Shown here: piece after piece, positions 12,499 to 25,979 of the stretch | Position numbering within the stretch: position 1 is the stretch's first letter | Layout: each line of letters starts with the position of its first letter | NCBI RefSeq assembly: GCF_026309355.1 | Contig: NZ_JAPJZK010000001.1 | Coordinates: 3,740,501-3,804,500, forward strand | Direction of reading: 5' to 3' | DNA from: Spartinivicinus marinus | Lineage (GTDB): Bacteria; Pseudomonadota; Gammaproteobacteria; Pseudomonadales; Zooshikellaceae | DNA length: 64,000 nucleotides | Program-made: the position numbers and the translations under genes | The notes under the pieces: generated by a model | Databases searched by the model: none | What the model was told of the DNA's origin: nothing | What the model saw: only the letters and a program-made list of their open reading frames with translations

Positions 12499-12523
12499 TA
12501 TCTAATACAAAAGGAGAGCTGAT

Positions 12524-12580
12524 ATGGAAGTAGTGAAAATGAATCCACAGTGTATCTATCCAAAATCTCAATCTGGGTAA
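12524..12580 (+). CDS. Possible 18-residue leader peptide
   Basis: A short reading frame, MEVVKMNPQCIYPKSQSG, follows an AAGGAGAGCT ribosome-binding site with good spacing and lies just downstream of the LexA-boxed promoter. There is no larger gene before the replication protein at 12793. It could be a small SOS-induced effector or simply a leader; no homology is recognised. Confidence 0.35.
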   Translation: MEVVKMNPQCIYPKSQSG

Positions 12581-12730
12581 TTTAGCCGTAATTAATTAAC
12601 TGGGCTTAGGCTCAATAAAATTTATTAAATCCTAATTTAGTAGCTAGCAATTAATTGGTTTTTGCTGGCAGGGTATTTTTACGTGCTGAATTTTCTAGCA
12701 GTAGTTTAGCAAAGGTTTATTTCGGGCATA

Positions 12731-12769
12731 AAAAAACTGCTTTACCGGTCAAAGCGAAGCAGTTTTTTT
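12731..12769 (+). terminator. Terminator upstream of replication genes
   Basis: ACTGCTT (12736-12742) pairs with AAGCAGT (12757-12763), with A-runs before and a seven-T run after. It would stop the rightward early transcript before the replication genes unless antitermination occurs. The stretch 12581-12730 holds nothing else recognisable. Confidence 0.7.
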
Positions 12770-12792
12770 AACAACCAAAGGATGTAGATATT

Positions 12793-13782
12793 ATGCATGT
12801 AAATGCCGAAGAAAGCAAAATTATTACCTTTCCAGGCACAAAAGACACTGAAAAATTAGAGTCTCAACAGTCAGAGCCACCAAAAAAAGTAAAAGGATTT
12901 ATTTCAATAGACAACTCGTTGTACGAGCAGCTTTATACAGCGGACATTACACGACGCCAGAATAGAGTTTTGCTTGTGATTATTCGTAAAACGATAGGCT
13001 TTCACAAAGAGCTAGACTGGGTTGCTGCTGAGCAAATTAAAGAAGCCATACATTACAAAGGCAGTATTACTCATATTCACAGCGATATCCGTGAGCTAAA
13101 AGAGCGCAAAATAATTGTCCAACAAGGCAAACAAATTGGCCCTAATTTATCTCTTCATGAATGGGTATCAAGAAAACCAAAAGTGACCGAAAACGGTTCC
13201 AAAACAAACCGAAAACGGTCACTACCAGAAGAGGAAAACAAACCAAAAACGGTCACAAAAGAAACCGAAAACGGTTTGTCTAGTGACCGAAAACGGTTTC
13301 AAAACAAACCGAAAACGGTCACCACAAAAGACACTAATACAAAAAACAATATAACTACTACGAGTAGTAGCTCGGGGTCGTGCAAAATGAATTCATCATC
13401 CGATCATCCAGTGTTTAATCAAAAACCACCGGCAACAAGAAAAAATTCTGGCACTCCAATGACACCCGATTGGGAACCGGACTGGAAAATAATAACCGGC
13501 ATGCTCATTCGAGCAGGGATTCCACCAGAGTTTGCAAAGCAAAGCCTTGATGAATTCAGGCTGTACTGGATTGACTCTGGTGAACATCATCCATCCTGGC
13601 AAGCCAAGTTTTTTCAGAGTGTTAAATCACAGTGGCCCATTTATCAAACCAAACAGCGTAGGCGACAAGAGTTAAATCAGGCTTTGGATCAAAAAACCGA
13701 GCAGCAAGTAAAACAAATCCAGAAGCAGTGCGAAAACATGCAGCCAAGCGAAGGCTGGTCAGGTGATTTAGGGGATTTTTAG
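12793..13782 (+). CDS. Phage replication initiator, lambda O-like with DnaT-like C-terminus
   Basis: A 329-residue protein. Residues about 34-120 form the winged-helix origin-binding domain of lambda O-type proteins (FISIDNSLYEQLYTADITRRQNRVLLVIIRKTIGFHK). Residues about 130-200 are low complexity and encoded by iterons. Residues about 222-290 (MTPDWEPDWKIITGMLIRAGIPPEFAKQSLDEFRLYW) match the DnaT single-strand DNA-binding domain. It likely binds the origin inside its own gene and helps recruit host DnaB with the P-like protein that follows 2 bp downstream. Confidence 0.85.
   Translation: MHVNAEESKIITFPGTKDTEKLESQQSEPPKKVKGFISIDNSLYEQLYTADITRRQNRVLLVIIRKTIGFHKELDWVAAEQIKEAIHYKGSITHIHSDIRELKERKIIVQQGKQIGPNLSLHEWVSRKPKVTENGSKTNRKRSLPEEENKPKTVTKETENGLSSDRKRFQNKPKTVTTKDTNTKNNITTTSSSSGSCKMNSSSDHPVFNQKPPATRKNSGTPMTPDWEPDWKIITGMLIRAGIPPEFAKQSLDEFRLYWIDSGEHHPSWQAKFFQSVKSQWPIYQTKQRRRQELNQALDQKTEQQVKQIQKQCENMQPSEGWSGDLGDF
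13186..13319 (+). repeat. Origin iterons inside the replication gene
   Basis: Six copies of the 12-bp palindromic ACCGAAAACGGT start at 13186, 13208, 13242, 13264, 13286 and 13308; the third reads ACCAAAAACGGT. Spacing is 22 bp except for one 34-bp step, so sites lie on the same face of the helix. An A-rich tract and a small hairpin near 13353-13368 follow. As in lambda, the origin probably lies within the initiator gene. Confidence 0.85.
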
Positions 13783-13783
13783 C

Positions 13784-14521
13784 ATGGAACAAGCAACTCA
13801 AATCGTATCAAAATTAAGTTTTAATCCAGGTCAGCAAGATATTCACAATAACCAAAATCAAGCACTCAACCAACAACAAACTGAGAAAATTATTAACCGA
13901 GTGTTTGAACAACTGCAAGCGATCAGACCTGCTTGGAAACTATCGTTACCAGACGGGCGAGCAGAGGCCATGGCCAAAAAAGAGTGGACCAAGGCATTCA
14001 TCAAAAACGGTATTTTAAGTTTTGAACAGCTACGCCTGGGTTTTGATAAAGCCAGATCAATTGATGATAAATATTTTCCTGACCCTGGCACATTCATCAA
14101 GTGGTGTACACCTCAACTTGAAGACTTGGGACTGCCTGAGCCTGCAACCGCGTATCACGAAGCTTGCAAACACGCCCATGAATTAACCCCAAGCAAAGCC
14201 AAATGGTCTCACCAAGCCGTATACGAAGCAGCAAAGCAAACCGGTTTCTTTGAATTAAAGTCAATGGCAGAAAAACACATACTGCCGGTATTCACCAGAA
14301 ACTACGACATTATCACTAAAAAAATACTGAAGGGTGAGCCCATCAGCGATATACCCAAAGCCCTACCTGGCCAAGTACAACAAACCCTTGCTGAACGTAA
14401 CAAAGCTTACCACGATGAACAGCAACAACAGCAAATACAACAAGCAGGCTTAAGCCATTTAAGTAATAAAACTGATGCGATGGCTGCTATCAAAGGAATG
14501 TTAAACAGAGGAGTTCAATAA
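13784..14521 (+). CDS. Lambda P-like replication protein (helicase recruiter)
   Basis: A 245-residue protein resembling lambda P. The central segment is RPAWKLSLPDGRAEAMAKKEWTKAF, followed by FPDPGTFIKWCTP, the family's best-conserved part. The C-terminus is Gln-rich. P-type proteins bring host DnaB helicase to the O-bound origin. It starts 2 bp after the O-like gene ends and its stop overlaps the next start. Confidence 0.82.
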   Translation: MEQATQIVSKLSFNPGQQDIHNNQNQALNQQQTEKIINRVFEQLQAIRPAWKLSLPDGRAEAMAKKEWTKAFIKNGILSFEQLRLGFDKARSIDDKYFPDPGTFIKWCTPQLEDLGLPEPATAYHEACKHAHELTPSKAKWSHQAVYEAAKQTGFFELKSMAEKHILPVFTRNYDIITKKILKGEPISDIPKALPGQVQQTLAERNKAYHDEQQQQQIQQAGLSHLSNKTDAMAAIKGMLNRGVQ

Positions 14522-14901
14522 TGGCTGACTTTAAACGCGAAAAACGATACTACGTACTGAAATTATCTGACATTCAGCATTTAAGTAGAGATGATCACGC
14601 AAAGCTTCTAAGTATTGGAGTAAAAGCCGATCAATTCCGCCAGCAACATGGCAAGCAAGACTTAGAGTGTGTAGTTGTTGAAAGCGACTGGCCTGAATAC
14701 GAAATTGTATGGTCGCTAATTGAAGCCAGAGAGACAGCCAAATCAGAAGTACAAAAGCTCAAAAGTATATTTCACCGTCTTCGTAATGAAACTGAAAAAG
14801 CTGCTCATGCTTACGCAGTTGCTTGTGATGTAGGCCCAGAAAGATTATTTGCTTTTGAGGTCTACGACAGAATTCGTCATGTAACCAGGAAGTTTTATTA
14901 A
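14521..14901 (+). CDS. Hypothetical early phage protein
   Basis: A 126-residue protein with a central helical region that may be coiled coil (ETAKSEVQKLKSIFHRLRNETEKAA). Its start overlaps the stop of the P-like gene. The family is not recognised. Confidence 0.6.
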   Translation: MADFKREKRYYVLKLSDIQHLSRDDHAKLLSIGVKADQFRQQHGKQDLECVVVESDWPEYEIVWSLIEARETAKSEVQKLKSIFHRLRNETEKAAHAYAVACDVGPERLFAFEVYDRIRHVTRKFY

Positions 14902-15062
14902 AAAAAGCACTGCTTCGTCAACGCTGTTTAGGGGTAGTGAGTAAAACGAAGCAATGCACACGGGGGCTACCGTGCAATCAGTATGACCCTAGCCAATTAA
15001 AGAAGTTCACCGCTAACGACGTCTTTACAAATAAATCATTAAGCGTACAGGGAGATAAGCTA

Positions 15063-15551
15063 ATGGGAGCATTAATCAGTGATTGTCAGCAATATCGATA
15101 CTGGCTAACAAGAACATGCGACACAGTTCATCCAGAAAAGTCATCTGTTTTATTTGTCATGCTTAACCCATCCACTGCAGATGCTGAGGTTGACGACCCA
15201 ACAATAAGAAGATGTAAAGGTTTTGCAAAGAAATGGAATTTTAAAGGCTTAACCGTTGCAAACCTATATGCGCTTCGCTCCACAAGCCCTAAGCACTTGT
15301 GGCAACACACTGACCCTGTGGGCAGTGACAATGATTATTGGCTTAAAAAATTAGCTGTTGAACACACTGAAGTAGTTTGTGCCTGGGGTGCAAATGCTAA
15401 ACCGGAGCGTGTTAATCAATTTATAAAAATGATGACCAACGCAGATATCAGGCTCTGGTGTTTAGGTGCTACCAAAACAGGAGCACCACGTCACCCGTTA
15501 TATGTAAAAGCTGATCAGCCATTAGTTGAGTTTAATGAAGTTCACCTCTAA
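15063..15551 (+). CDS. DUF1643 family protein
   Basis: A 162-residue protein with the DUF1643 hallmarks YRYWLTR, FVMLNPSTAD, DDPTIRRCKGFA and NLYALRSTSP. These proteins are common in phages and mobile elements; the activity is not known. I prefer ATG 15063, which has an AGGGAGATAA ribosome-binding site, over a GTG at 14937 that adds 42 poorly conserved residues. Confidence 0.8.
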   Translation: MGALISDCQQYRYWLTRTCDTVHPEKSSVLFVMLNPSTADAEVDDPTIRRCKGFAKKWNFKGLTVANLYALRSTSPKHLWQHTDPVGSDNDYWLKKLAVEHTEVVCAWGANAKPERVNQFIKMMTNADIRLWCLGATKTGAPRHPLYVKADQPLVEFNEVHL

Positions 15552-15578
15552 CGACATACAACAAAAGCTGAGAACTGT

Positions 15579-15794
15579 ATGAAACTGCAATATAAACCTA
15601 TTTCAAATGCTAAAGCGGGAGATCAGGTTTTATATAAGATTGGTCATCGCTTTAAAGAAGACAATATGGCGCCTTGCACCTTAGTCAACTCAAATAAAAA
15701 GAAAACCACAGTTTATTTTTATGGTGACCCAAAGTGCGATATGGCAGCTAAAACCACACACTTTTTTACCAAGGTAGGTGAATTGCATGAATAA
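15579..15794 (+). CDS. Hypothetical small protein
   Basis: A 71-residue predicted beta-rich protein with no recognised family (GDQVLYKIGHRF, then TTVYFYGDP). It overlaps the next gene by 8 bp in the early operon. Confidence 0.5.
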   Translation: MKLQYKPISNAKAGDQVLYKIGHRFKEDNMAPCTLVNSNKKKTTVYFYGDPKCDMAAKTTHFFTKVGELHE

Positions 15795-16179
15795 CAACAC
15801 AATAGAATCACCAAAAGAAGACAAATGCATTAACTGCGGTATGAGAAAAATACACAATGAAATTGCCAGTGTTCATACAGGCGTTATGGCAATTACCTAT
15901 GCATGCGGTACCAAGGTAGTAGGTCAACTGTTAGAAACCTCAGAAGTATGTGACGAAATTACCTTGTTAAAAGAACAAATATCAAGCTGGAATAAATTAG
16001 CTGATACCAGTTTTTCAAAAGCTGTCTATGAACTAAAAAAATCACTTAGTTTTTTAGCCAAGCTAAGCGAGAAAAACCATAAAAGAGTAAAAGGTGGTCA
16101 CGAAGCATTAAACGCCATTATTCAACACGAAGGCCGCCTAAGACACCACGCTGACGTAAATAACAGGCAGGTATTTTAA
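15787..16179 (+). CDS. Hypothetical protein with N-terminal zinc motif
   Basis: A 130-residue protein. CINCGM near the N-terminus plus a later HTG...YACG may bind zinc; the rest is helical. ATG 15787 has AGGT upstream and is preferred to a GTG at 15778. It is adjacent to the Ref nuclease gene. Function is unknown. Confidence 0.5.
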   Translation: MNNNTIESPKEDKCINCGMRKIHNEIASVHTGVMAITYACGTKVVGQLLETSEVCDEITLLKEQISSWNKLADTSFSKAVYELKKSLSFLAKLSEKNHKRVKGGHEALNAIIQHEGRLRHHADVNNRQVF

Positions 16180-16539
16180 ATGCTAGGCCGTAGCGTAACC
16201 AAACCACAAAAACAATTTCATGATGCCCTGGCGGAACACGTCGGCTGCATTGCTTGTAGAAAAGCAGGCAGCCACAACAACTGGGTATCAATCCACCACA
16301 TAGACGGCAGAACAAAAAGCCATGCCCATTGGTACGTATTACCCCTATGCGCTGGCCACCACCAGGATGGAACTGGAAACAAGCAATTAAAAGGCTGGGC
16401 AATCCACCCATACAAGGCACGATTTGAAAAACGCTACGGCACCCAACACCAGCTGTACATCGAATGCTTACACCTACTTGCTAGACATAACTATCGCTTA
16501 CCAGAAGAACTTAAAACTTGGATAAGGGAAACAAAATGA
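16180..16539 (+). CDS. Ref-like RecA-dependent nuclease
   Basis: A 119-residue HNH-type protein matching the Ref family. CIACRKAGSHNNWVSIHHIDGRTK gives the Cys and His ligands, VLPLCAGHHQDGTG the second half, and IHPYKARFEKRYGTQ the family C-terminal motif. P1 Ref cuts DNA at RecA-bound D-loops and stimulates recombination. With the RdgC-like protein this gives the phage two RecA-linked functions. Confidence 0.78.
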   Translation: MLGRSVTKPQKQFHDALAEHVGCIACRKAGSHNNWVSIHHIDGRTKSHAHWYVLPLCAGHHQDGTGNKQLKGWAIHPYKARFEKRYGTQHQLYIECLHLLARHNYRLPEELKTWIRETK

Positions 16540-16799
16540 TAGAAATCAACAAACAACTCATCAAGCAAGTATTCCCCGGCTCAATGTTCAAACAGTTAGC
16601 CAGACCCACCGTCAGCCAAACTGCAATAAACGTAAAGCCTGGCCAATGGGTATGGGAAGACGGACAAGGTAATACGTACAGCCTAGATGGCATAGTCGAA
16701 TGGCACGCTAATGACAGCCCATTCAACTATGAATACCGCGATGACGTGATGTACCAAGTGTATTTAAGACTAAGCCAATTACACGGATATGAGGTGTAG
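16536..16799 (+). CDS. Hypothetical small phage protein
   Basis: An 87-residue protein whose ATG overlaps the stop of the ref-like gene (ATGA). PGQWVWEDGQGNTYSLDGIVEWHAN suggests a small beta domain. Family not recognised. Confidence 0.5.
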   Translation: MIEINKQLIKQVFPGSMFKQLARPTVSQTAINVKPGQWVWEDGQGNTYSLDGIVEWHANDSPFNYEYRDDVMYQVYLRLSQLHGYEV

Positions 16800-16801
16800 A
16801 G

Positions 16802-17569
16802 ATGCTAATAGGAATAACCGGCAAAGCCCGAGCAGGCAAAGACACCTTTGCTAACTACCTGCAAGAACAACTGCCCGAGTACAACAAATACGCTATAGCT
16901 GATCCAATAAAACAGTTTATTAATGATTTATTCTGGAAAGGGTTAAATACCGAGCCATTAAAAGAGCTGGAAATACTAAGCCTGCCTATTCATTTTCTGG
17001 TGCTAGAAGATTTTTTAGAACCAATTCTTAAAGCACTCAATATAGATATGAAGCTTAGGGATATGGTTTTACACTTCATCAATGCATTCGGTGCCTACGA
17101 AGTAGATGAACAAGAAAGGAGAAGCATCAAAGAGGGATTGCATTACGACTCTGTAATTTACCAAGTTTCTCCAAGAAAAGCCTACCAGTTATTCGGCACT
17201 GAAGTCTGTCGCCACTTCGACCAAGACTTCTGGTTAAAGCCATTAAACCAAACGCAAAACACCATAATCACCGACGTAAGACTAAACCGCGAAGCTGAAT
17301 ACATTAAAAACCGTGGGGGTGTAATCATAGAAGTAGTCAGAAACAACACCCCAAAAGTCGAAAACCACATAACCGAACAAGGCATTGATAAAAAGCTTAT
17401 TGACTTTAGCGTACTCAACGATTCCCTAGAAGGACTACAAGAGCAAGCAGAAGACATTCATTTCAATATTGTGGAAAAAATTAGTGCTGAACTTCCCCAA
17501 AAAAGAAAAGCGATTAATGAGGCAGTATCCCTATTAAATGAAATATTCAACGGAAAGGTAAACCAATGA
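16802..17569 (+). CDS. Phage deoxynucleoside monophosphate kinase
   Basis: A 255-residue P-loop kinase. Walker A is GKARAGKDT at residues 7-15. Other motifs are RKAYQLFGTEVCRHFDQDFW and NTIITDVRLNREAEYI, typical of T4 gp1-like dNMP kinases. These enzymes raise dNDP supply for phage replication. This is relevant because the neighbouring element encodes AvcD, which drains the dCTP/dCMP pool. Residues 225-255 form a C-terminal extension. Confidence 0.78.
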   Translation: MLIGITGKARAGKDTFANYLQEQLPEYNKYAIADPIKQFINDLFWKGLNTEPLKELEILSLPIHFLVLEDFLEPILKALNIDMKLRDMVLHFINAFGAYEVDEQERRSIKEGLHYDSVIYQVSPRKAYQLFGTEVCRHFDQDFWLKPLNQTQNTIITDVRLNREAEYIKNRGGVIIEVVRNNTPKVENHITEQGIDKKLIDFSVLNDSLEGLQEQAEDIHFNIVEKISAELPQKRKAINEAVSLLNEIFNGKVNQ

Positions 17570-17988
17570 CAACAACTAACGTAGAAGCAGCCTTAGAAGA
17601 AACTATTGCTAAAACAGTAGTACAGCTACATAAAGCCAATCAATTACTTGGTCTATTTGCAGATGGTGTATGTGACCTACTTGATTGTGGCGCTTGTGAT
17701 TTAGGGCTGGAAATAGATCAATACCGAGAAATAATACCTGAAAACTGCTCAGTTGAATTCGCCTTTTTGCTATTGGATGAGTTCAAGCGGTACGTCAATT
17801 CAAACCCAAAATCTGATGCCCTTTGCACAACCTATTTTAATCTGGATAACTGGCAACTACCTGACAGTAAAGATATTGGGGGTGAGAACGCGAATAGACC
17901 TAGCGAATCCGACAGCAGGTGTACTGTTGATCCTGCAGTTGTTGCCAATGATCCCGGAGAAAAAGCATCACTACAACCAAGAAAATGA
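17566..17988 (+). CDS. Hypothetical early phage protein
   Basis: A 140-residue acidic protein with an N-terminal helical part, a CDLLDCGACDLG cysteine cluster near residues 36-47 and a disordered C-terminus. It overlaps both neighbours by 4 bp. No family recognised. Confidence 0.5.
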   Translation: MTTTNVEAALEETIAKTVVQLHKANQLLGLFADGVCDLLDCGACDLGLEIDQYREIIPENCSVEFAFLLLDEFKRYVNSNPKSDALCTTYFNLDNWQLPDSKDIGGENANRPSESDSRCTVDPAVVANDPGEKASLQPRK

Positions 17989-18305
17989 GCAAGCTCGAAG
18001 CTACTTTAGAACTACATATCAAAGCCCTAAAGCTACCAGCACCAAAGACTGAATATAAATTCCATCCCAAAAGAAGATGGCGCTTTGACTTCGCCTGGCC
18101 TGATAAAAAGTTAGCAGTAGAGGTAGAAGGCGGAGGATGGGTAAACGGAAGGCACAACCGAGGCCAGGGCTTTGCCAACGACATGGAGAAATACCACGAA
18201 GCAATGGACCTGGGCTGGAACATATACCGTTGCAACAGTGAGCTAATCCACAGTGGCCGAGCGGTAGAACTGATACAAAAGCTGTTGTCTGCTAGTTGCT
18301 ACTAG
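17985..18305 (+). CDS. PD-(D/E)XK nuclease, Vsr/DUF559-like
   Basis: A 106-residue small nuclease. RRWRFDFAWPDKKLAVEVEGGGW supplies the D...ExE catalytic pattern and a Lys, followed by GRHNRGQGFANDMEKYHEAMDLGWNIYRC, a layout common to phage homologues of Vsr/DUF559 endonucleases. It may process recombination or packaging intermediates. The stop lies inside the first of the 40-bp repeats. Confidence 0.72.
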   Translation: MSKLEATLELHIKALKLPAPKTEYKFHPKRRWRFDFAWPDKKLAVEVEGGGWVNGRHNRGQGFANDMEKYHEAMDLGWNIYRCNSELIHSGRAVELIQKLLSASCY

Positions 18306-18500
18306 GCGTGCTAGACAGCCTGAGACCGATTAGGAGGACATACACACGACAAATAGAGGACACGACAGGACACAGAAAAAGGCCGCTAATACTTGAGTTA
18401 GAGCAGCTAAGACTGAATTTAAAGACAAGAAATACGACAAGCTCAATATACTCATTTGCCGCTAGTAGGCGTGCTAGAGGGGGTGAGACCAGATTTAAAG
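18291..18500 (+). repeat. Three copies of a roughly 40-bp element
   Basis: Copies lie at 18291-18333, 18381-18424 and 18458-18500; a fourth is at 18888-18931. The shared core is GTGCTAGAGxGGCTGAGACC (allowing one to six changes), preceded by a GCTAxTA-like segment and followed by ATTAG or ATTTAAAG. Copies are not in the same reading frame and lie outside the supported genes except for the nuclease stop. They may be RNA structures or protein-binding sites. Between copies one and two there are four GGA motifs in ACA-rich sequence. Confidence 0.65.
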
Positions 18501-18508
18501 GAGACAGC

Positions 18509-18676
18509 ATGGTAAAGATAATTCCCTTTAACAAACCCAAGCAGCAACCAAGACAAAAATGTCAGAGCCGTGATAGCAACATATACATCACTAAAGACGG
18601 CTCACCCTTCACCAACCCGAAATATAAGGAGGCAGTAAAAAGCATATTAGAAGACGCAAAAAAACTGGGCTGGTAA
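18509..18676 (+). CDS. Small protein related to the avcD-linked gene, copy A
   Basis: A 55-residue protein, MVKIIPFNKPK at the start and DGSPFTNP followed by a helix ending KKLGW. It is the more divergent relative of the proteins at 18694-18870 and 3514-3699. ATG 18509 has an AAAGGAGA ribosome-binding site directly after a 40-bp repeat copy; a longer open frame starting at 18296 covers repeat sequence and is not supported. There is no AvcD-like gene in the prophage. Confidence 0.65.
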   Translation: MVKIIPFNKPKQQPRQKCQSRDSNIYITKDGSPFTNPKYKEAVKSILEDAKKLGW

Positions 18677-18693
18677 TAACTCACGAGGATGGC

Positions 18694-18870
18694 ATGGCAA
18701 AAATAATCCCTTTCAATAACCCCAGAAAACTACAACCCAGACAACAGCAAGAAGACAATAGCTTTATTCCATCAGAGCCAATTAATAAGAATGGTTCACT
18801 ACTTGAAGACCCGAAGTATCAAGAAGCATTTAAAGCATTATTAGAAAAAGCCAAAAAGCTAGATTGGTAA
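18694..18870 (+). CDS. Small protein related to the avcD-linked gene, copy B
   Basis: A 58-residue protein: MAKIIPFNNP at the start, FIPSEPINKNGSLLEDP in the middle and a helix ending KAKKLDW. It shares FIPSEPI, KNGSLLEDP and KLDW with the 61-residue protein upstream of avcD at 3514-3699; the nucleotide match across this part is also evident. It starts 17 bp after copy A stops, behind CGAGGA. Expressed with the early operon, it could mimic the avcD-linked component; this is inference. Confidence 0.7.
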   Translation: MAKIIPFNNPRKLQPRQQQEDNSFIPSEPINKNGSLLEDPKYQEAFKALLEKAKKLDW

Positions 18871-18887
18871 CCAAATACAACAATAAA

Positions 18888-18931
18888 AGCCTCCTACTTA
18901 TCGTGCTAGAGAGGCTAAGACCGTATTAGTA
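18888..18931 (+). repeat. Fourth copy of the 40-bp element
   Basis: CTCCTACTTATCGTGCTAG followed by AGAGGCTAAGACCGTATTAG matches the copies at 18291-18500. It separates copy B of the small-protein genes from the Q-type gene. Confidence 0.6.
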
Positions 18932-18961
18932 AGAACGAATAAACCCTTGAAGGAGTGAAGT

Positions 18962-19519
18962 ATGGTAAATGCAAACGTAATGGCATTATTAGCCCATGGC
19001 AGTATCAATTACGAAGGTGTACCTGGTGGTACTCCCCAATTAACCGCTGAAGATGTGGCTGGTGCTTTAGGTATGGGCAGCTTACCACGAGAGGCGTACT
19101 TATTAGGGCTGTTAAAGTATGCTGAAGATAAAACTGTACTGCATGAGTTGGATAGGTTGGTGCAGGAATATGTAATAGGTGTGGGGGTGAAGGAAGGTTG
19201 GCGCGAACCATGGCCAAAGGAGAAAAAGCGTTCCTTAATGTTCTTTAAGCAATTCGCCCGGTTAATGATTAACGAAATCGTTGACGAAAACATTTGTAAA
19301 TCCTGTAACGGAACTGGCATTTTCAGTCATTCAAAACTGATTCGAAAATGTAATTGTACTAACGGTAAAAAAGCTTTATCTAAACTTAAACAAGCAAAGT
19401 TCTGTAATATCAACCATCAAGCATGGAATGAAAGGTGGTATGAGAGATACAGCCACTGCCTTAAACAAATTCATGTATGGCATGCTAGTGTAATTTTTCA
19501 TCTTATTAACCATATTTAG
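18962..19519 (+). CDS. Q-type late antitermination protein
   Basis: A 185-residue protein at the end of the early operon. The N-terminal half contains a helical DNA-binding region. A zinc-finger motif follows at about residues 119-140 (CKSCNGTG...KCNCTNGKK), as in lambdoid Q/antitermination proteins with a CxxC...CxC finger. Q proteins load onto RNA polymerase at the late promoter. A promoter with leader hairpin and terminator lies at 20499-20619. Assignment rests on motif and position. Confidence 0.7.
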   Translation: MVNANVMALLAHGSINYEGVPGGTPQLTAEDVAGALGMGSLPREAYLLGLLKYAEDKTVLHELDRLVQEYVIGVGVKEGWREPWPKEKKRSLMFFKQFARLMINEIVDENICKSCNGTGIFSHSKLIRKCNCTNGKKALSKLKQAKFCNINHQAWNERWYERYSHCLKQIHVWHASVIFHLINHI

Positions 19520-19614
19520 CTAAGTTCTTTACAAGGAAAAATACATCAACTTCACTTACCTAAATTGAGGAGCTAAGAAAAATATTACAACTTCATAACC
19601 AAAGGGAATTGGTG

Positions 19615-20007
19615 ATGAGTAAGCCCATAATATACTTAGGAAGAAAAATTCAAAAAGAAATTGATCAAAGCCCTGAAGATGTAAGAGACAGAATAAACTT
19701 TGAGCTAGTGGCACTACAAGAAGGGCAGCCTTCTTCTTTTGAGTACCACACTTATAATGACCCAGAAGATGATAGCAAATACCCTCCTGTAGTACATAAG
19801 AATATGAAGGAGACAATTGGTAAACATGCAAGGCAGTTTACGATAAAGAGTCAGGATTCATACAGAATTATTTATGTCTCTGTGCACAAGGAAGCGATTT
19901 ATGTTTTACATTTCTTCAAAAAGAAAACTGAGGGGGTGAGTCCGAAAGAATACAACACCGCCCATCAACGTTACAAAAACCTTGAGCAGCACCGTAAGTC
20001 TCTATAG
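19615..20007 (+). CDS. Gp49/HigB-like RelE-family toxin
   Basis: A 130-residue protein with the RelE-fold signature TIKSQDSYRIIYVSVHKEAIYVLHFFKKKTEGVSPKEYNTAHQRY, typical of phage Gp49/HigB toxins that act as ribosome-dependent mRNA nucleases. It has an AAGGGA ribosome-binding site. An XRE antitoxin gene follows at 20161, the toxin-first order of HigBA systems, although the 153-bp gap is long. Confidence 0.8.
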   Translation: MSKPIIYLGRKIQKEIDQSPEDVRDRINFELVALQEGQPSSFEYHTYNDPEDDSKYPPVVHKNMKETIGKHARQFTIKSQDSYRIIYVSVHKEAIYVLHFFKKKTEGVSPKEYNTAHQRYKNLEQHRKSL

Positions 20008-20160
20008 TGAATAGCTATTAAGCCTAGCCATTCTAATATAAAACAAGGCTATGCATAATTCTGCATATTATGTATGCTTAATAGTAAGCAGATTAACTAC
20101 TAGTTTGTAGTTTGATTGTTTAACTAGCTGGATGCTAGTAATATCGATGAGGATCATCAT

Positions 20161-20481
20161 ATGGAATTTGTAACAGTTCGAAACCCTTACCTCTCATCTT
20201 CTAAGACAGAAGAAGAAGCAGTTGATAAGCACATGAGGGCACAGTTACTTGTCGTTTTACGTAAATTAATTGTTGAGCAAGGATTGACACAAACTGATGC
20301 TGCAGAAGTTTTAGGAATTACTCAACCACGAGTAAGTGATATTATTAACGGAAAAATATCTGTTTACACTGTCGAAAAACTAATGTTCCTTCTCTTTAAG
20401 CTTGGTTGGCGCTTTGACTTTAGTTACGAAAATGGAAAAGTTAGTATAGAAAGCGAAAATATAAAATCACAAGCAGCATAA
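20161..20481 (+). CDS. HigA-like XRE antitoxin
   Basis: A 106-residue HTH protein: LRKLIVEQGLTQTDAAEVLGITQPRVSDIINGKISVYTVEKLMFLLFKLGWRFDFSYE is the XRE_37 pattern of antitoxins paired with Gp49-type toxins. The gap before it contains ATGCATA/TATGTATGC inverted sequences that may be its operator. It stabilises the prophage or aborts infection by other phages, by analogy. Confidence 0.8.
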   Translation: MEFVTVRNPYLSSSKTEEEAVDKHMRAQLLVVLRKLIVEQGLTQTDAAEVLGITQPRVSDIINGKISVYTVEKLMFLLFKLGWRFDFSYENGKVSIESENIKSQAA

Positions 20482-20498
20482 TTTTTTGCTTATCTTTA

Positions 20499-20527
20499 TT
20501 GACATGGTAGAAACATAGTTATATATT
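20499..20527 (+). promoter_or_regulatory. Late promoter (pR'-like)
   Basis: TTGACA at 20499-20504 and TATATT at 20522-20527 are separated by exactly 17 bp, the strongest sigma-70 promoter visible in the prophage. It lies downstream of the Q-type gene and upstream of the lysis and structural genes. Confidence 0.75.
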
Positions 20528-20534
20528 AAATTCA

Positions 20535-20619
20535 GAATGTATTTCTGTGCCTAAACTAAAATACATTCAAGTATAGAAAGTTTTGGGAAAAAGCCTCATC
20601 ATCTGATGGGGCTTTTTTT
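20535..20619 (+). terminator. Late leader hairpin and terminator tR'
   Basis: A 10-bp perfect inverted repeat, GAATGTATTT with AAATACATTC, lies at 20535-20568. A terminator follows at 20591-20619: AAGCCTCATC, ATCT, GATGGGGC and seven T residues. Transcription from the promoter at 20499 would stop after about 85 bases unless the Q-type protein acts. Confidence 0.75.
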
Positions 20620-20656
20620 ATGCCTGCAGAAAACCACTCCCCTAATAGAAATTACT

Positions 20657-20830
20657 ATGGACACTACTAACCTGTTTACTGGCTCGCTTGTCAGATTAAA
20701 GTCGGGCGGACCGGTGATGACCGTTATTAATGTAAACGCTTTAACTGTCGAATGCCGTTGGTTTGATGGTGCTACTCCACATAAAGCTGTATTCCCAAAA
20801 TCTGCTTTAGAGCAAGTTAATTCTTTTTAA
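20657..20830 (+). CDS. YodC/DUF2158-like small protein
   Basis: A 57-residue protein: FTGSLVRLKSGGPVMTVINV, then ECRWFDG and FPKSALEQV, the pattern of the DUF2158/YodC family found in bacteria and phages. Function unknown. First gene after the late terminator. Confidence 0.75.
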   Translation: MDTTNLFTGSLVRLKSGGPVMTVINVNALTVECRWFDGATPHKAVFPKSALEQVNSF

Positions 20831-20832
20831 CC

Positions 20833-21255
20833 ATGAAAATCACTAAACTCGTTGTGCATTGTTCTGATACACCCGACGATAGGGATATATCAGCTGAGGA
20901 TATCCATCGCTGGCATAAAGAACGGGGGTGGGATGGCATCGGTTATCACAAAGTCATTAAGCGTGATGGTACAGTTGAAAATGGACGCCCTGAGTTCTGG
21001 CCGGGTGCACATGTTAAAGGCCATAATCATTGTAGCCTGGGCGTTTGCTTAATTGGCCGTGATTGCATTACTTCCGGTCAGTTAGTTAGCCTGGAAAAAG
21101 TCATTGACGACTGGCTATTAAAATACCCTGAAGCTGAAATAGTTGGTCATTGTGATTTAGACCCTGGTAAAACCTGCCCTAACTTTGATGTGCAAGACTG
21201 GTGGAGCATAGTTAAAGACATAAGGAGCTACAGTCAGAATGGATATAGTAACTAA
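20833..21255 (+). CDS. Endolysin, N-acetylmuramoyl-L-alanine amidase
   Basis: A 140-residue amidase_2 enzyme like T7 lysozyme. Zinc ligands are His in VVHCSDT near residue 9, His in GHCDLDPG near 117 and Cys in KTCPNFD near 125, with the catalytic Lys just before the Cys and YHKVIKRDGTVENGR in between. It cleaves the amide between MurNAc and the stem peptide. No signal peptide is visible, so export depends on a holin. Confidence 0.92.
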   Translation: MKITKLVVHCSDTPDDRDISAEDIHRWHKERGWDGIGYHKVIKRDGTVENGRPEFWPGAHVKGHNHCSLGVCLIGRDCITSGQLVSLEKVIDDWLLKYPEAEIVGHCDLDPGKTCPNFDVQDWWSIVKDIRSYSQNGYSN

Positions 21256-21382
21256 CTTTTTCATTATTCTTTCAGCTGCTTTTATTACCATTGTACTGCC
21301 TGCTCTCGGGCTATTAATTTACGCTCAAAACCAGCGTCAAAAGTACTTTCAGGATTACTTAAAAAGAAAACAGAAACACTAA
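21239..21382 (+). CDS. Small single-span membrane protein in lysis cassette
   Basis: A 47-residue protein: an N-terminal hydrophobic helix (FFIILSAAFITIVLPALGLLIY) and a basic C-terminus. The ATG overlaps the amidase stop by 17 bp. Size and position fit an Rz-type spanin fragment or a holin-associated protein; family is not recognised. Confidence 0.5.
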   Translation: MDIVTNFFIILSAAFITIVLPALGLLIYAQNQRQKYFQDYLKRKQKH

Positions 21383-21393
21383 TAAGGAATCAC

Positions 21394-21702
21394 ATGAATA
21401 AAACACACTTTATTGATAGCAATGGCAACCCTGCTGGTGGAACTACTTCTGGTAGAGGCTTTGCTATTAGTTGGCAAAATGGTCCTTTGGATGCTAATGG
21501 TGAAAGGTTGCCGCCAAATGGTGCTTTTGTAGAAGATATTATAAATGCTGCCAAAGATCGCTTAGAGTTTTATCAAGAATCAAAGTTTTGTTGTGACTAT
21601 AATGCTGAAGCAATAAAGCACTTAGAGTCAGCTATTGCTGTATTAAACTTACGCACTGCGGACCGTGAAAAGCGCGGTGTTGAAGGAACTCACGAAGTTT
21701 AA
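21394..21702 (+). CDS. Possible Tad1/Acb2-like signal sponge
   Basis: A 102-residue protein with FAISWQNGPLD, NGAFVEDIINAAKDRLEFYQESKF and NAEAIKHLESAIAVLNLRTADREKRGVEGTHEV. The helical hairpin ending RT..R..RGVEGTH is the pattern I associate with Tad1/Acb2 domain proteins, phage factors that sequester the nucleotide signals made by CBASS and Thoeris defences. I am relying on recall of the family; ligand residues cannot be confirmed by eye. Many prophages carry this gene near the lysis genes, as here. Confidence 0.5.
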   Translation: MNKTHFIDSNGNPAGGTTSGRGFAISWQNGPLDANGERLPPNGAFVEDIINAAKDRLEFYQESKFCCDYNAEAIKHLESAIAVLNLRTADREKRGVEGTHEV

Positions 21703-21708
21703 CTAAAC

Positions 21709-22101
21709 ATGATAGCCACTATCGTCACAGCCGTTAGTAGTTTATTTCAATCCTATTTAACCAACAAACAACACAAAGCCGAACTCAAGCAAGCCATCCA
21801 CAAAAAGCAACTAGACGAAATTCAGCAAGGCAATATCAGTGCCTCAGAACTGGATTCAATTAGTATTCAGTCGCGAGGCTGGAAAGATGACTTTTTGCTG
21901 ATTATTACTGTTTTACCTCTAGTTGTTTGCTTTATACCTGGCATGAGTATTTATATTCAGGACGGCTTTGGCGCATTAAAAGCCAGCGTACCTGAATGGT
22001 ATTTATACGCCTTAGCCCTCGTTTTTATTGATACCTTTGGATTTAGACGAATACTGCGTAGTGTGTTAGTTCAGTATTTAACGAATAAATTTGGTAAATA
22101 A
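21709..22101 (+). CDS. Holin-like protein (GTA_holin_3TM family)
   Basis: A 130-residue protein. A helical N-terminal region is followed by RGWKDDFLLIITVLPLVVCFIPGMSIYIQDGF and EWYLYALALVFIDTFGFR, the characteristic pattern of the three-TM gene-transfer-agent holin family. It would permeabilise the membrane for the amidase or protect against it. Confidence 0.75.
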   Translation: MIATIVTAVSSLFQSYLTNKQHKAELKQAIHKKQLDEIQQGNISASELDSISIQSRGWKDDFLLIITVLPLVVCFIPGMSIYIQDGFGALKASVPEWYLYALALVFIDTFGFRRILRSVLVQYLTNKFGK

Positions 22102-22121
22102 CTGACAACACGGTTAGCCTG

Positions 22122-22340
22122 ATGGTAACTGAAAAAATCATATCAAACGCCCCTTATGTCGCCAGTGTAGTCACTGTGATTGCTGGTCTAACTCTCAAAG
22201 ACTGGGGTGTCATTATCGGTATTATTCTTACCACGATTACCGTTGTGGTTAACTGGGTGTATAAGCACAAACAAGATAAGCGCGAGACAGAATTATTTTA
22301 TCGAGAAATGTATGGCGGTAAACCTCCTGAAAAAGAGTAA
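22122..22340 (+). CDS. Class II-type holin
   Basis: A 72-residue protein with two hydrophobic segments (YVASVVTVIAGLTL and VIIGIILTTITVVVNWVY) and a charged C-terminus, like phage 21/HP1 S-type holins. With the protein before it, this gives two candidate holins next to the endolysin. Confidence 0.75.
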   Translation: MVTEKIISNAPYVASVVTVIAGLTLKDWGVIIGIILTTITVVVNWVYKHKQDKRETELFYREMYGGKPPEKE

Positions 22341-22358
22341 ATAGTTAATCCCAACCTT

Positions 22359-22384
22359 TGCCCACGCCCTGTGGGCTTTTTTTT
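22359..22384 (+). terminator. Terminator after lysis genes
   Basis: GCCCAC (22360-22365), a GCCCT loop, and GTGGGC (22371-22376) followed by eight T residues. Confidence 0.85.
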
Positions 22385-22410
22385 AAAACAATAAAGAAGA
22401 TAGGTAAGTT

Positions 22411-23142
22411 ATGAATATTATTCCGTTTGAATTTAATAACTCTGCAGTACGTGTTATCAATAAAGATGGTGAACCTTGGTTTATTGCTAAAGATATAGCA
22501 GAAGTGCTTGGGTATGCCGAGGCTTATAAGATGACACGCAATCTAGATGATGATGAGATTGCCCCCCACATTGTGGGGACGAATGCTGGACCCCGTGAAT
22601 TCAGTATCATCAATGAGTCAGGTCTTTATTCAGCTATCCTCAAAAGCCGCCGGCCCGAAGCCAGAATCTTTAAAAAATGGGTTACCAATGAAGTGCTTCC
22701 AACTATTCGAAAAACTGGCAGCTATGGTACAACTCAAATTGATTGGACTAATACACAGCAAGTGGCTGGGATATTGGCGCAGTCAATGGAAAAAATCCAA
22801 GAACAAAGCCAACAAATAGGCGCTATGAAGCCTAAAGTTGAAGCCCTTGAGCGTATCGCTAAATCTGATGGTGGTATGTGTATTACCAATGCAGCTAAAG
22901 ATTTGCAGGTTAGGCCAAAGGATTTATTTAGTTGGTTATCCGAGAATAAGTGGATATATCGTAGGGCCGGTCATGCCAGCTGGACGGCCTATCAAAATAA
23001 AATACAGCAAGGTGTTTTAGAACATAAAGTCACTGTCGTTAGTCGTTCAGATGGGGCAGAGAAAACCACTGAACAAGTGAGGGTGACCCCTAAAGGTTTG
23101 GCTTTATTAGCTGAGCGACTTAACCCGTTTGAAGTTGCTTAA
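22411..23142 (+). CDS. Phage antirepressor, Bro-N plus KilAC domains
   Basis: A 243-residue protein. Residues 1-105 form the Bro-N domain (VRVINKDGEPWFIAKDIAEVLGYA...FKKWVTNEVLPTIRKTGSY). Residues 145-235 form a KilAC/ANT-type DNA-binding domain (ITNAAKDLQVRPKDLFSWLSENKWIYRR). Antirepressors of this design inactivate phage repressors. Here it is in the late region and bracketed by terminators. It could provide induction for a phage whose repressors lack the self-cleavage domain. Confidence 0.85.
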   Translation: MNIIPFEFNNSAVRVINKDGEPWFIAKDIAEVLGYAEAYKMTRNLDDDEIAPHIVGTNAGPREFSIINESGLYSAILKSRRPEARIFKKWVTNEVLPTIRKTGSYGTTQIDWTNTQQVAGILAQSMEKIQEQSQQIGAMKPKVEALERIAKSDGGMCITNAAKDLQVRPKDLFSWLSENKWIYRRAGHASWTAYQNKIQQGVLEHKVTVVSRSDGAEKTTEQVRVTPKGLALLAERLNPFEVA

Positions 23143-23172
23143 ATAATTTCACACCTGATATTCATAACCCTT

Positions 23173-23195
23173 GCCTACTTCGGTGGGCTTTTTTA
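23173..23195 (+). terminator. Terminator after antirepressor
   Basis: GCCTAC, TTCG tetraloop, GTGGGC (23183-23188) and six T residues. Confidence 0.8.
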
Positions 23196-23211
23196 TTTGT
23201 GAGAAATCATT

Positions 23212-23310
23212 ATGCGATTGATATTATTAGTTGTCTTAGTTTATTCAATATTTAATTATTCACTGGCTACTACTGACGTAGACTCCAGCACTCAAGAGCA
23301 TCATGCCTAA
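23212..23310 (+). CDS. Possible 32-residue secreted or membrane peptide
   Basis: MRLILLVVLVYSIFNYSLA followed by a polar tail, resembling a signal peptide with short mature part. It overlaps the HNH gene start by 8 bp. No lipobox Cys is seen, so an Rz1 assignment is not supported. Confidence 0.3.
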   Translation: MRLILLVVLVYSIFNYSLATTDVDSSTQEHHA

Positions 23311-23668
23311 ACGCACACCACGCCCCTGTCGTTCATTAGGCTGTAGTGGATTAACTCGTGAAAGACACGGCTATTGTGAGCAGCATAAACAACAGGCTTC
23401 AGGCTGGACCCAATGGCAAAAGAACAAAGGTAACCGCCATCAACGTGGCTACGGTAAGCAGTGGGAGCGGTTACGTAAATTGGTATTAGAGCGTGATACT
23501 TATCTATGCCAAGTGTGCTTAATAATTAATAAATTAACGCCAGCCAATATTGTTGATCACATTAAACCCAAGAGCCAAGGCGGTGATGATGCGCTTGACA
23601 ATTTACAAACCATTTGCCGTCCTTGTCACCAGAAAAAAACCGATCAAGAAAAAAATCATCGGCGTTGA
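23303..23668 (+). CDS. HNH endonuclease (packaging-associated)
   Basis: A 121-residue HNH nuclease with a Zn-binding frame: CQVCLIINKLTPANIVDHIKPKSQGGDDALDNLQTICRPCHQKKT supplies the two CxxC pairs and the H...N...H catalytic set. In HK97-type phages this gene lies immediately before the terminase and is needed for cos cleavage and packaging. Confidence 0.9.
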   Translation: MPKRTPRPCRSLGCSGLTRERHGYCEQHKQQASGWTQWQKNKGNRHQRGYGKQWERLRKLVLERDTYLCQVCLIINKLTPANIVDHIKPKSQGGDDALDNLQTICRPCHQKKTDQEKNHRR

Positions 23669-23734
23669 GACTGCCTGAGAGCCTTTCTAAGCAATGCCGC
23701 CCACAATTAATGGCAAGGTATTAATAATAATGCC

Positions 23735-23790
23735 ATAGGGGGGCGGGGTTAATCTCTGGGGCTTGTAGCTAGGTATCGAGCGCTTCAAGA
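23735..23790 (+). other. Candidate cos site
   Basis: The 160-bp gap between the HNH and terminase small-subunit genes contains a G-rich run, GGGGGGCGGGGTTAATCTC, and then TGGGGC. This arrangement is typical of the cos region in HNH/P27-terminase phages. The nick positions cannot be determined by eye. Confidence 0.55.
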
Positions 23791-23829
23791 ATTTTTTTAT
23801 TCCCGCGAAATTAAAAATTACAACATGCG

Positions 23830-24285
23830 ATGGCTAGAGGTCGAAAACCAAAGCCCACCCAGCAGAAGTTACTCGCGGGGAATCCCGGCAAGCGGGCTTT
23901 AAATCATGATGAACCGAGTTATGGTGCACTTACCAATGTTGATCCACCCGCCTGGTTGGACGCCACTGCTACAGAATTGTGGAGCTACTTAGCCCCCAAG
24001 TTAATCAAGAGTGGTGTGTTAACTGAAGTTGACTTTCATAACCTGGAAATCTTTTGTACGGCTTACGCGCGTTGGCGGGCCGCTGAAGAAGCGATAGAGC
24101 AACACGGCATTATGGTTACGGATAACAACGGTAACTTAAAGAAAAACCCAGCGTGTACGGTGGCGAACGAATCCATTAAGCAAGTGGATAGCTACGGTGC
24201 GAAGTTGGGCCTTGATCCTGCCAGTCGTGCTCGATTAGCTGTTGGTGGCCAGCCAGCGGAAGAAACCAACGAATTTAATCTATGA
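23830..24285 (+). CDS. terS: Terminase small subunit, P27 family
   Basis: A 151-residue protein with ARGRKPKPTQQKLLAGNPGKRAL at the N-terminus, the typical P27 start, and SYGAKLGLDPASRARL near the end. It binds the packaging site and directs TerL. It overlaps terL by 4 bp. Confidence 0.92.
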   Translation: MARGRKPKPTQQKLLAGNPGKRALNHDEPSYGALTNVDPPAWLDATATELWSYLAPKLIKSGVLTEVDFHNLEIFCTAYARWRAAEEAIEQHGIMVTDNNGNLKKNPACTVANESIKQVDSYGAKLGLDPASRARLAVGGQPAEETNEFNL

Positions 24286-25979
24286 CGAATTACGAGCGCG
24301 CTGAACATTACGCGAAAGCGGTGGTCGCTGGTGACATACCGGCTTGCCAATATGTTATTCAAGCGTGTCAGCGCCATTTAACCGATTTAACCCAAGTTGA
24401 TGAACCTGATTTTCCTTATTATTTTGATGAGGAAAAAGCCGAGCGCATTTGTAAATTTGTTCAGCTACTGCCGCATACCAAAGGCAAGTGGGCCTCTAAA
24501 AAGCAAAATATTCAGTTAGAGCCCTGGCAGTGTTTTGCGTTTGGTGTGCCATTTGGTTGGTGCAGAAAAAAAGACCACACCCGCCGTTATCGTGAGGTGT
24601 ATTACGAAGTCCCTCGTAAAAACGGCAAGTCCATTTTAGCAGCAGGTGTTGGTTTATATTGCTTTGCTATGGATGATGAATTCGGTGCAGAAGTTTACTC
24701 GGGGGCAACCACTGAAAAACAAGCTTGGGAGGTGTTTCGACCGGCCAAGATCATGGTGGAGAAAAGGCCAAAGTTACAGAAACATGCAGGCATTCAAGTC
24801 AATGCCAAAAACATGCATATTGTATTAGATCATGCCCGCTTTGAGCCGTTGATTGGTAACCCGGGTGATGGTTCTTCTCCTAGCTGCGCGTTAATTGATG
24901 AGTATCACGAGCATCAAACCAGTGACTTATATGACACCATGCGTTCAGGCATGGGCGCCAGAGAACAACCGTTATTATTTGTGATTACCACGGCAGGCTT
25001 TAACATTGCTGGGCCTTGTTATGACAAACGACAAGAGGTGATTAATATCCTTAACGGTTCAGTGCCGAATGATGAACTGTGGGGACTCATTTATACCATT
25101 GATGAAGACGACGACTGGACACAACCGGAAGCGTTAATTAAAGCGAATCCTAATTACAATGTGTCGGTATTGGAGGACTTTTTATTATCCCAGCAAGCCA
25201 GTGCCGTTGCCAATGCTAGCCGCCAAAATCCATTTAAAACTAAGCACCTGAATGTTTGGGTTAATGCCCGTGAAGCCTGGATTAATTTAGTCGATTGGCA
25301 TCGCTGTTGTGACAAAGGGTTATCCCTTGACGATTTTAAAGGCGATGAGGCTGTATTTGCGATTGACCTTTCATCACACATTGATATTTGTTCTTTTGTG
25401 CAGGTATTTACCCGTCAAGTCGCGGATAAACAGCATTATTATGCCTTTTCTCGTCACTATTTACCGGAAGACACAATCTATGACGAGAATAATAAAAACC
25501 ACTCCGCGTATCAGCAGTGGTTAAATGAAGGGTATTTAACGAAAACTGATGGGGCTGAAATTGATTACAGCCAAGTCAGGCAAGAGATATTAGAGCTTTC
25601 CGAGCAACATCAAGTAAGAGAAATTCCCCATGACCCTTGGGGAGCGGTACAACTGGCACAAGAACTGGATCAGTACAATTTAAGTCCGGTTAAATTTCCC
25701 CAAACCACGTCCAACTTTTCACCCGCGATGAAAGAGTTAGAGGCAGCCATAAAAGCCCAACGCTTTCACCATGATGGTAATCCGATATTAACTTGGATGA
25801 TGTCAAACGTAACGGTAAAAGAAGACGCTAATGAGAACATCTTTCCGCGCAAAGAAAAGCCCCATAACAAAATTGATGGTGCTGTTGCATTAATTATGGG
25901 AATTGGCCGTTCCATGCTCGACGACGACAGCCCCTCATTAAATAAAGCCTACGAAAACCACGGCATTCGTTTTCTATGA
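24282..25979 (+). CDS. terL: Terminase large subunit
   Basis: A 565-residue packaging motor of the HK97 group. The N-terminal ATPase has Walker A-like VPRKNGKS near residues 108-115 and Walker B ALIDEYHEH near 205. The C-terminal nuclease starts with AIDLSSHIDICS near 358. It packages DNA into proheads and cuts at cos. Confidence 0.96.
   Translation: MTNYERAEHYAKAVVAGDIPACQYVIQACQRHLTDLTQVDEPDFPYYFDEEKAERICKFVQLLPHTKGKWASKKQNIQLEPWQCFAFGVPFGWCRKKDHTRRYREVYYEVPRKNGKSILAAGVGLYCFAMDDEFGAEVYSGATTEKQAWEVFRPAKIMVEKRPKLQKHAGIQVNAKNMHIVLDHARFEPLIGNPGDGSSPSCALIDEYHEHQTSDLYDTMRSGMGAREQPLLFVITTAGFNIAGPCYDKRQEVINILNGSVPNDELWGLIYTIDEDDDWTQPEALIKANPNYNVSVLEDFLLSQQASAVANASRQNPFKTKHLNVWVNAREAWINLVDWHRCCDKGLSLDDFKGDEAVFAIDLSSHIDICSFVQVFTRQVADKQHYYAFSRHYLPEDTIYDENNKNHSAYQQWLNEGYLTKTDGAEIDYSQVRQEILELSEQHQVREIPHDPWGAVQLAQELDQYNLSPVKFPQTTSNFSPAMKELEAAIKAQRFHHDGNPILTWMMSNVTVKEDANENIFPRKEKPHNKIDGAVALIMGIGRSMLDDDSPSLNKAYENHGIRFL

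Follow-up and report, generated by a model that had tools for sequence, protein, structure and literature searches.

A conserved small peptide encoded beside an AvcD-type deaminase and its relatives in a neighbouring prophage: a candidate antitoxin and candidate antitoxin mimics

The window (the whole stretch of 64,000 nucleotides of Spartinivicinus marinus DNA that was analysed) carries two prophages side by side and the gene of an AvcD-type anti-phage deaminase (Table 1). This gene was assigned by NCBIfam NF041025 (496 bits against a cut-off of 400), PADLOC dCTPase (E 5e-168) and phrog_9198 (E 2.5e-122), and the first two of these matches give its product the deaminase type of AvcID systems. 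A search of the PDB for a solved AvcD structure yielded distant relatives for the deaminase domain only; the N-terminal part of AvcD we take to be a P-loop kinase-like domain. The ORF listing agrees with what the sequence-only reading had stated about the surroundings of the deaminase gene, namely that a small ORF lies 36 bp upstream of it. The ORF thus occupies the place of the small antitoxin-position gene of AvcID systems, immediately upstream of avcD, and an SD-like GAGG is found 8 nt before its ATG.

Prophage 2 is bounded by a 25-bp exact attachment repeat (4740-4764, identical to 47113-47137) at the end of the tmRNA gene, which was the only Rfam match over the window, and encodes its integrase at 5632-6885. 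Prophage 1 lies to the left of it in opposite orientation and is related to it, with many late proteins being 93-100% identical. No direct repeat of at least 15 nt was found at the far end of prophage 1; avcD likely lies inside this prophage. A CsrA-type regulator (PF02599; 266-571) is encoded near the integrase gene of prophage 1, and a similar ORF (7289-7630) near that of prophage 2.

Table 1 Features of the window and C-terminal ends of AvcD partner peptides encoded at other loci.
Feature	Position	Strand	Remarks
Integrase of prophage 1	776..1942	+	phrog_1, PF00589; ends beside avcD
AvcD-type anti-phage dCTP/dCMP deaminase	1939..3477	-	512 aa; NF041025, PADLOC dCTPase, phrog_9198
AvcD partner peptide (window copy), proposed antitoxin	3514..3699	-	61 aa; ends ..NKANKLDW; position and C-terminal motif conserved in AvcD clade
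Prophage 2, carrier of C and B	4740..47137	.	integrated in tmRNA gene; 25-bp exact repeat
30-bp repeat, copy 1	18298..18327	+	near orphan cassette
30-bp repeat, copy 2	18461..18490	+	just upstream of C; can form hairpin
Prophage orphan peptide C	18509..18676	+	55 aa from its ATG; ends DAKKLGW; SD-like AAGGAG
Prophage orphan peptide B	18694..18870	+	58 aa; ends KAKKLDW; SD-like GAGG; nearest relative found of the window's AvcD partner
30-bp repeat, copy 3	18893..18922	+	just downstream of B
Q-like antiterminator after orphan slot	18962..19519	+	phrog_127, E 1.6e-5; similar gene after slot in G001
Partner peptide of L054, Zhongshania			ends ..NRANQLDW
Partner peptide of L157, E. coli IncI plasmid			ends ..AASKKITW
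Partner peptide of L158, Photobacterium plasmid			ends ..KAAQKIRW
Partner peptide of L159, Vibrio coralliilyticus plasmid			ends ..AASKLDW
Partner peptide of L160 and L161, Klebsiella and E. coli small plasmids			ends ..EDSKSLKW
Partner peptide of L162, gut phage scaffold			ends ..RRAQKTDW
Partner peptide of L172			ends ..ARAQELDW
Partner peptide of L182, E. coli integrative element			ends ..RAESIIW

Two small genes of prophage 2, C and B, had been taken for relatives of the gene beside the deaminase, and this kinship holds. In BLASTP, the window's AvcD partner (hereafter the window copy) matched B with 29 of 42 identical residues (E 2e-21) and C with E 9e-9, while B and C matched each other with E 6e-17. 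The motifs FIPSEPI, KNGSLLEDP and KLDW are indeed common to B and the window copy, all three peptides have the LxW ends ascribed to them (Table 1), and the C-terminal helix was predicted for B at residues 40-55 (block pLDDT 77-81). Over 42 ungapped C-terminal codons the window copy and B differ at 38 nucleotides, which fall 11/4/23 on codon positions 1/2/3. These differences cause 13 amino-acid changes, where random placement would lead to 24.0 ± 2.1 (0 of 5000 trials gave 13 or fewer), and 15 of the 29 identical residues are written with different codons. Selection between the window copy and B acts on the protein, and the saturation of synonymous sites shows that their kinship is old. Identity to B amounts to 55% for the window copy and to 17-26% for six other AvcD partners. 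Pfam, NCBIfam and PADLOC returned no credible family for the small peptides, and C gave a weak PHROG match (phrog_36108, E 0.002). A match to gamma-glutamyltranspeptidase (E 0.009, under the cut-off) was taken as chance.

The location of C and B in the prophage is as described before; their assignment to an "early operon", however, is better replaced by that to an accessory slot just before the gene of a Q-like antiterminator. Small accessory genes of phages in exchangeable slots near Q, before the late antiterminator, form a general class, from which C and B differ in that they have an identified relative beside AvcD. This genome contains the pair three times, at C1 579 kb, at 2703 kb and in the window, each time within related prophage DNA. 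A single match in the genome (G000) exceeded the NF041025 cut-off, namely the window deaminase, and none did so at the three sites of the pair. The earlier remark that the prophage has no deaminase thus stands: C and B are encoded without the toxin, the only AvcD above the cut-off adjoining prophage 1, and we refer to them as orphans.

Not one of the 345 coding bases of C and B differs among the three prophages, and their intervening and flanking bases agree to 97-100%. The adjoining genes agree to 74-91%, with 281 or 291 of 321 identical bases in the gene that precedes the slot and 412 of 558 in the Q-like gene that follows it (17985-19519 compared with L046 and L047). From the sequences, it seems that an accessory cassette was recently exchanged or underwent gene conversion. 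A 30-bp hairpin-forming repeat (core GCGTGCTAGAnnGnnTGAGACC) stands at gene junctions round the orphan slot in four prophages (L045-L047 and the window); it is found at matching junctions in the other two prophages and G001, is absent from the G003 contig, and may be a recombination element or one for processing or antitermination. The corresponding slot of prophage 1 holds other genes, with neither an orphan nor the 30-bp repeat. The AvcD-linked prophage 1 is thus devoid of orphans, and the three orphan carriers are devoid of AvcD. Some 1 kb ahead of the orphans lies the gene of a deoxynucleoside monophosphate (dNMP) kinase (16802-17569; phrog_139, E 1.4e-43), which probably shares their operon. 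Behind the Q-like gene, Gp49-like and HTH_37 genes stand in tandem (19609-20481), which we take to be the layout of a HigBA-type toxin-antitoxin pair.

To place the small gene beside the deaminase in a wider frame, AvcD loci were sampled by similarity to the window's AvcD. They comprised the best 80 of at least 168 confirmed relatives from genome contigs, 29 and 13 loci in overlapping sets from viral contigs, and loci from 6 of 62 matching plasmid records, 2 of 6 GenBank phages, 5 of 58 matching E. coli genome records and further genomes; with such sampling, other branches may have other kinds of partner that are invisible to a W motif. Of 131 loci entered, L067, L109 and L164 (less than 1000 nt of deaminase match in one open frame) and L014 (the same as L128) were dropped, which left 127 rows for a quick tree by FastTree. 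Deaminase fragments (L153-L156, L181), the window itself as L012 and L165, other deaminases below the cut-off (L015-L041) and the re-fetched loci L170, L171, L174, L175 and L180 were never part of it. In the dropped L164, a 5.8-kb E. coli plasmid, avcD is broken and the small upstream ORF is intact.

The window's AvcD falls into a clade of 21 rows (support 96), which also includes the AvcD of E. coli H10407 p58. A small upstream ORF is present in all 19 rows that have upstream DNA (2 of the 21 are without it). Fifteen of these ORFs end in W, one of them with ..RSW, and those of four E. coli rows, three of which are near copies, end in D (IILD or IVFD). Outside the clade, a W end was found in 1 of 100 testable rows (L088, ..GPGW), probably by chance. 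The difference corresponds to a Fisher value of 1.4e-14, which is not a probability over independent trials since many rows are relatives. Among ORFs on the same strand whose end lies close to where the deaminase match begins, 12 of 192 had ends of the form [LITMV]xW, compared with 61 of 10,677 ORFs elsewhere (116 loci). The proposed link of the family to AvcD was thus recovered in E. coli, Klebsiella, Vibrio, Photobacterium, Zhongshania and viral contigs (Table 1). An SD-like sequence precedes 14 of the 18 family ORFs examined and is absent at L014, L048, L158 and L183. In the E. coli elements next to yjjG (L183, L184, L186), avcD directly adjoins an integrase gene, as in the window.

A scoring matrix for the C-terminal 16 residues was made from 17 peptides and used to scan 13,459 ORFs of 30-140 aa from 197 sequence entries, some of them overlapping or duplicate. 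The family scored from 40.5 down to 13.9 bits, the next ORF 8.4 bits. All ORFs of at least 13.9 bits lie beside avcD or are orphans of the host family, with the one exception of a 16.5-bit ORF that overlaps the G003 orphan (see below). Co-occurrence of the family with AvcD, as had been suggested for a check, is therefore borne out in so far as no wide spread without an AvcD link appeared in the entries scanned, most of which were chosen via AvcD and hence amount to no genome survey.

The scan also placed the peptide gene downstream of avcD in six sister AvcDs (L050, L051, L052, L053, L058 and L130, the last re-fetched as L174), none of whose peptides had been used in making the motif. In L052 the ATG of the peptide gene overlaps the avcD stop codon, and possible ATGs in L050 and L051 precede the end of that stop by 10 and 7 nt; the peptide starts 10 nt after avcD in L053, with possible starts 172 and 157 nt after it in L058 and L130. 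A wider clade of 30 rows (support 99) contains 21 rows with the peptide, 15 upstream and 6 downstream, 15 of the 21 being in, or identical to, the motif-defining set. By comparison, none of the 97 tree rows outside the wider clade has a W-motif peptide beside AvcD. Rows of the wider clade without a W peptide are the four D-type E. coli rows, L049 and L056, which have an upstream ORF with no W, and L129, L133 and L169, whose upstream DNA is cut and for which no peptide was found downstream. We define the partner-peptide family by an ORF of about 55-80 aa that adjoins avcD and ends in A-x-x-(L/I)-x-W, a description that fits the window copy. Twelve further loci were held out, two of which belong to the clade by best match: L195 has a W peptide (..LSRASKIDW) and L196 a 50-aa ORF at the corresponding place with no W. 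No peptide was found at the other ten, one of which has only 6 nt of upstream and one 77 nt of downstream DNA.

According to PMC10511110, AvcI is a non-coding RNA that binds and inhibits AvcD as part of a type III toxin-antitoxin system. The same paper describes AvcD as depleting dCTP/dCMP, as being held by the co-encoded AvcI and as being released when host transcription stops, and states that the formation and active form of the AvcI RNA need further study. The p58 copy is probably the E. coli ETEC system of that paper. The active inhibitor could accordingly be an RNA at the present loci as well, with the ORF carried along or serving as a short coding leader and the phage copies acting as RNA mimics; we regard this as unlikely. 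Apart from the published AvcI (PMC10511110), it draws on the location of the gene in the AvcI position in 19 of 19 testable clade rows and on fold z-scores below -2.4, which were obtained in 3 of 17 regions (L147, L158 and L172). Further, L160 and L161 (Klebsiella and E. coli) have in common a block upstream of the peptide ORF that is conserved almost without interruption and includes a short inverted repeat (CTGTTATAAAGATAACAG); it may be a regulatory site or an RNA element. The codon pattern is also weak between some AvcD-linked pairs (16/19/33 for L160-L161, 21/19/30 for L185-L183 and 26/26/38 for L147-L157). Their third-position excess, much weaker than that between the window copy and B, counts against a peptide and would mean that the peptides change fast outside the C-terminus. 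Also counted against a peptide is that the p58 ORF is of the D type and goes undetected by the W motif.

What is conserved at these loci is, however, the peptide: the window copy and B show the codon-position pattern of a protein, the same motif is encoded by different codons, and the partner gene stands downstream of avcD in six loci, where a 5' RNA leader is no explanation and a two-gene protein operon is one. The RNA version of the partner, which the sequence-only reading had left as an option, is thereby disfavoured. The prediction of a fold shared by the three loci, suggested there as a check, gave it no support either: B, C and the window copy showed no unusual fold (z +0.78, -0.46 and -0.82), and neither did the regions of L183 and L185 from E. 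coli, RNA folding z-scores being a weak test. By eye, hairpins that precede C do not resemble those before the window copy. For the window's AvcD partner, the sequence evidence thus favours a peptide over a non-coding RNA, although an RNA may act there as well. The published RNA result for Vibrio AvcID is not contradicted by these data.

We asked how the orphans relate to the AvcD-linked peptides. A matrix was built from 13 AvcD-linked peptides other than the window copy and applied without its W column; none of 5337 background ORFs scored as high as B, C or the G003 orphan. Five of the 5337 outscored the window copy, and 0 to 26 outscored the individual members when each was omitted from the matrix. 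This background covers regions downstream of avcD as well, and the downstream peptides described above may be part of it. A profile of the three orphans matched eight AvcD-linked peptides over 18 columns (E 5.5e-6, probability 86%), which identifies the C-terminal helix as the shared part. Outside the window subfamily, the rest of the peptide is too diverged for confident alignment; a KIIxF/NVVxF segment recurs, by eye, in many members. By BLASTP, profile and matrix, the orphans are homologous to the antitoxin-position gene of a defence system, as would be the case for phage antitoxin mimics.

Among 56 relatives, an intact orphan was found in a G003 phage and a decayed remnant in G001. Behind the G003 orphan, which has 58 aa, come an ORF of 205 aa, a Q-like gene and genes that by similarity are amidase- and holin-like. 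The G001 remnant consists of a decayed C-terminal part, with another gene in place of the N-terminal half. This replacing gene is a 265-aa ORF (L010 1579-2376, minus strand) that has no Pfam match at 0.01 and presumably resembles a PAPS-reductase-type protein. The search for further orphans gave none in viral contigs, GenBank phages or plasmids (matches of the G003 peptide to GenBank phages had E 0.3 or worse only), and in 369 genomes of the class it returned the own genome and two weak matches inside long open frames (E 0.007 and 0.034). Likewise, a search of GenBank phages with three AvcD partner peptides from E. coli found no orphans. Orphans were found only in this host family. The AvcD of G003 belongs to another branch without a partner peptide, which counts against mimicry. 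It is encoded as a 600-aa ORF with a long N-terminal extension (L013 1303-3105, minus strand), and its neighbour, we assume, resembles a phage tail gene.

Based on these sequence comparisons, we favour, with modest confidence, the reading that the small gene encodes a peptide antitoxin of one AvcD branch and that the phage orphans are antitoxin mimics. It builds on a partnership of AvcD and the peptide that is apparent from the adjacency on either side of avcD, on homology and selection at the protein level, on the orphan status of B and C, and on their near-identical cassette in diverged prophages. By eye, the peptide is designed as a short strand-like segment (KIIPF/NVVxF) with basic residues, followed by a helix that ends in A-x-x-(L/I)-x-W at the C-terminus. 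Such a peptide would bind AvcD, docking via the C-terminal helix and the W, and keep AvcD inactive. Once a phage stops host gene expression, the peptide, if labile, would be lost and AvcD would deplete dCTP/dCMP. Orphans made from the phage's own operon may then act as decoys that replace the lost host copy, so that AvcD would stay off during infection or induction. That B is so close to the local AvcD partner is expected of a mimic of the local antitoxin. In an AlphaFold model of a peptide-AvcD read-through fusion the core was confident and the peptide was not docked (block pLDDT 30-60; alignment without relatives for the peptide part). Terminator-like hairpins with T runs are seen by eye between the peptide gene and avcD in L014 (1311-1416) and L158 (2343-2416); they would fit an antitoxin made in excess.

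The partnership itself does not give the sign of the effect, and the peptide might instead be a co-factor or trigger of AvcD (a chaperone, an activator or a phage sensor), with the orphans competing for its target or acting as dominant negatives. Strong divergence over most of the peptide, with the C-terminal end kept, would suit a sensor that docks by a fixed end. A phage, however, is not expected to retain an activator of a defence enzyme in two intact copies, and the terminator-like hairpins ahead of avcD in two loci are, by eye, antitoxin-like, which makes this alternative improbable. It is quite unlikely that the orphans regulate the phage's own nucleotide enzymes, such as the dNMP kinase encoded by the prophage at 16802-17569, via the P-loop kinase-like domain that AvcD presumably also has, as no closer relative of B was found than the local AvcD partner, and family members from outside this group of phages adjoin avcD. 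Least probable of all is that the orphans remain from an avcD operon since lost or are carried as neutral passengers: the decayed C-terminal remnant in the G001 prophage shows that the gene can be lost, but B and C are two intact, diverged copies under purifying selection, the identical pair occurs in three prophages with diverged flanking genes, and the copy in the G003 phage is intact.

The proposed antitoxin and its mimics may be compared with three known systems. With AvcID they share the deaminase family, the small antitoxin-position gene directly upstream of avcD and, through the p58 copy, the AvcD clade. In contrast to the non-coding AvcI, the conserved partner here is a peptide that is also encoded downstream in sister loci, and orphan phage copies, which are present here, are not described for AvcI in the passages of PMC10511110 consulted. 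Like the pseudo-ToxI of phage PhiTE, which faces ToxIN, the phage copies are relatives of the antitoxin to a defence toxin of the host; according to PMC3475682, an escape phage also gained ToxI by recombination and the RNA mimic was shown by experiment, whereas here the mimic is a peptide of predicted function. A further difference is that the present orphans are old copies with saturated synonymous sites, apparently exchanged between prophages as a cassette. AdfB, an antitoxin mimic of phage ICP1 against DarTG, reportedly differs from the orphans in its toxin and protein family. The likeness is that a phage encodes a protein antitoxin to a defence toxin, one by which the replication of phage genomes is blocked; the action of AdfB was shown by experiment (PMC11481870), and the orphans are predicted mimics. 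In the open-licence PMC literature, covered at title and abstract level with the original 2022 papers outside this scope, we found no peptide partner of AvcD and no phage anti-AvcD gene.

AvcID is classed as type III, with an RNA antitoxin, and a conserved peptide partner makes the nature of the inhibitor directly testable. A broader picture, which we consider plausible but not quite probable, is that the AvcD branch including that of H10407 p58 is under a peptide antitoxin, instead of or besides an RNA, and that temperate phages carry the orphans as an exchangeable anti-AvcD cassette. If true, phages would here have a gene dedicated to inhibiting deoxycytidine-depleting immunity, the first so far as the open-licence PMC literature shows, and one prophage would use it against the defence cargo of a neighbour and relative. 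Should the orphans inhibit AvcD, they would give phages a countermeasure against immunity by nucleotide depletion, and the pair of prophages in the window would be a natural experiment in prophage-against-prophage warfare.
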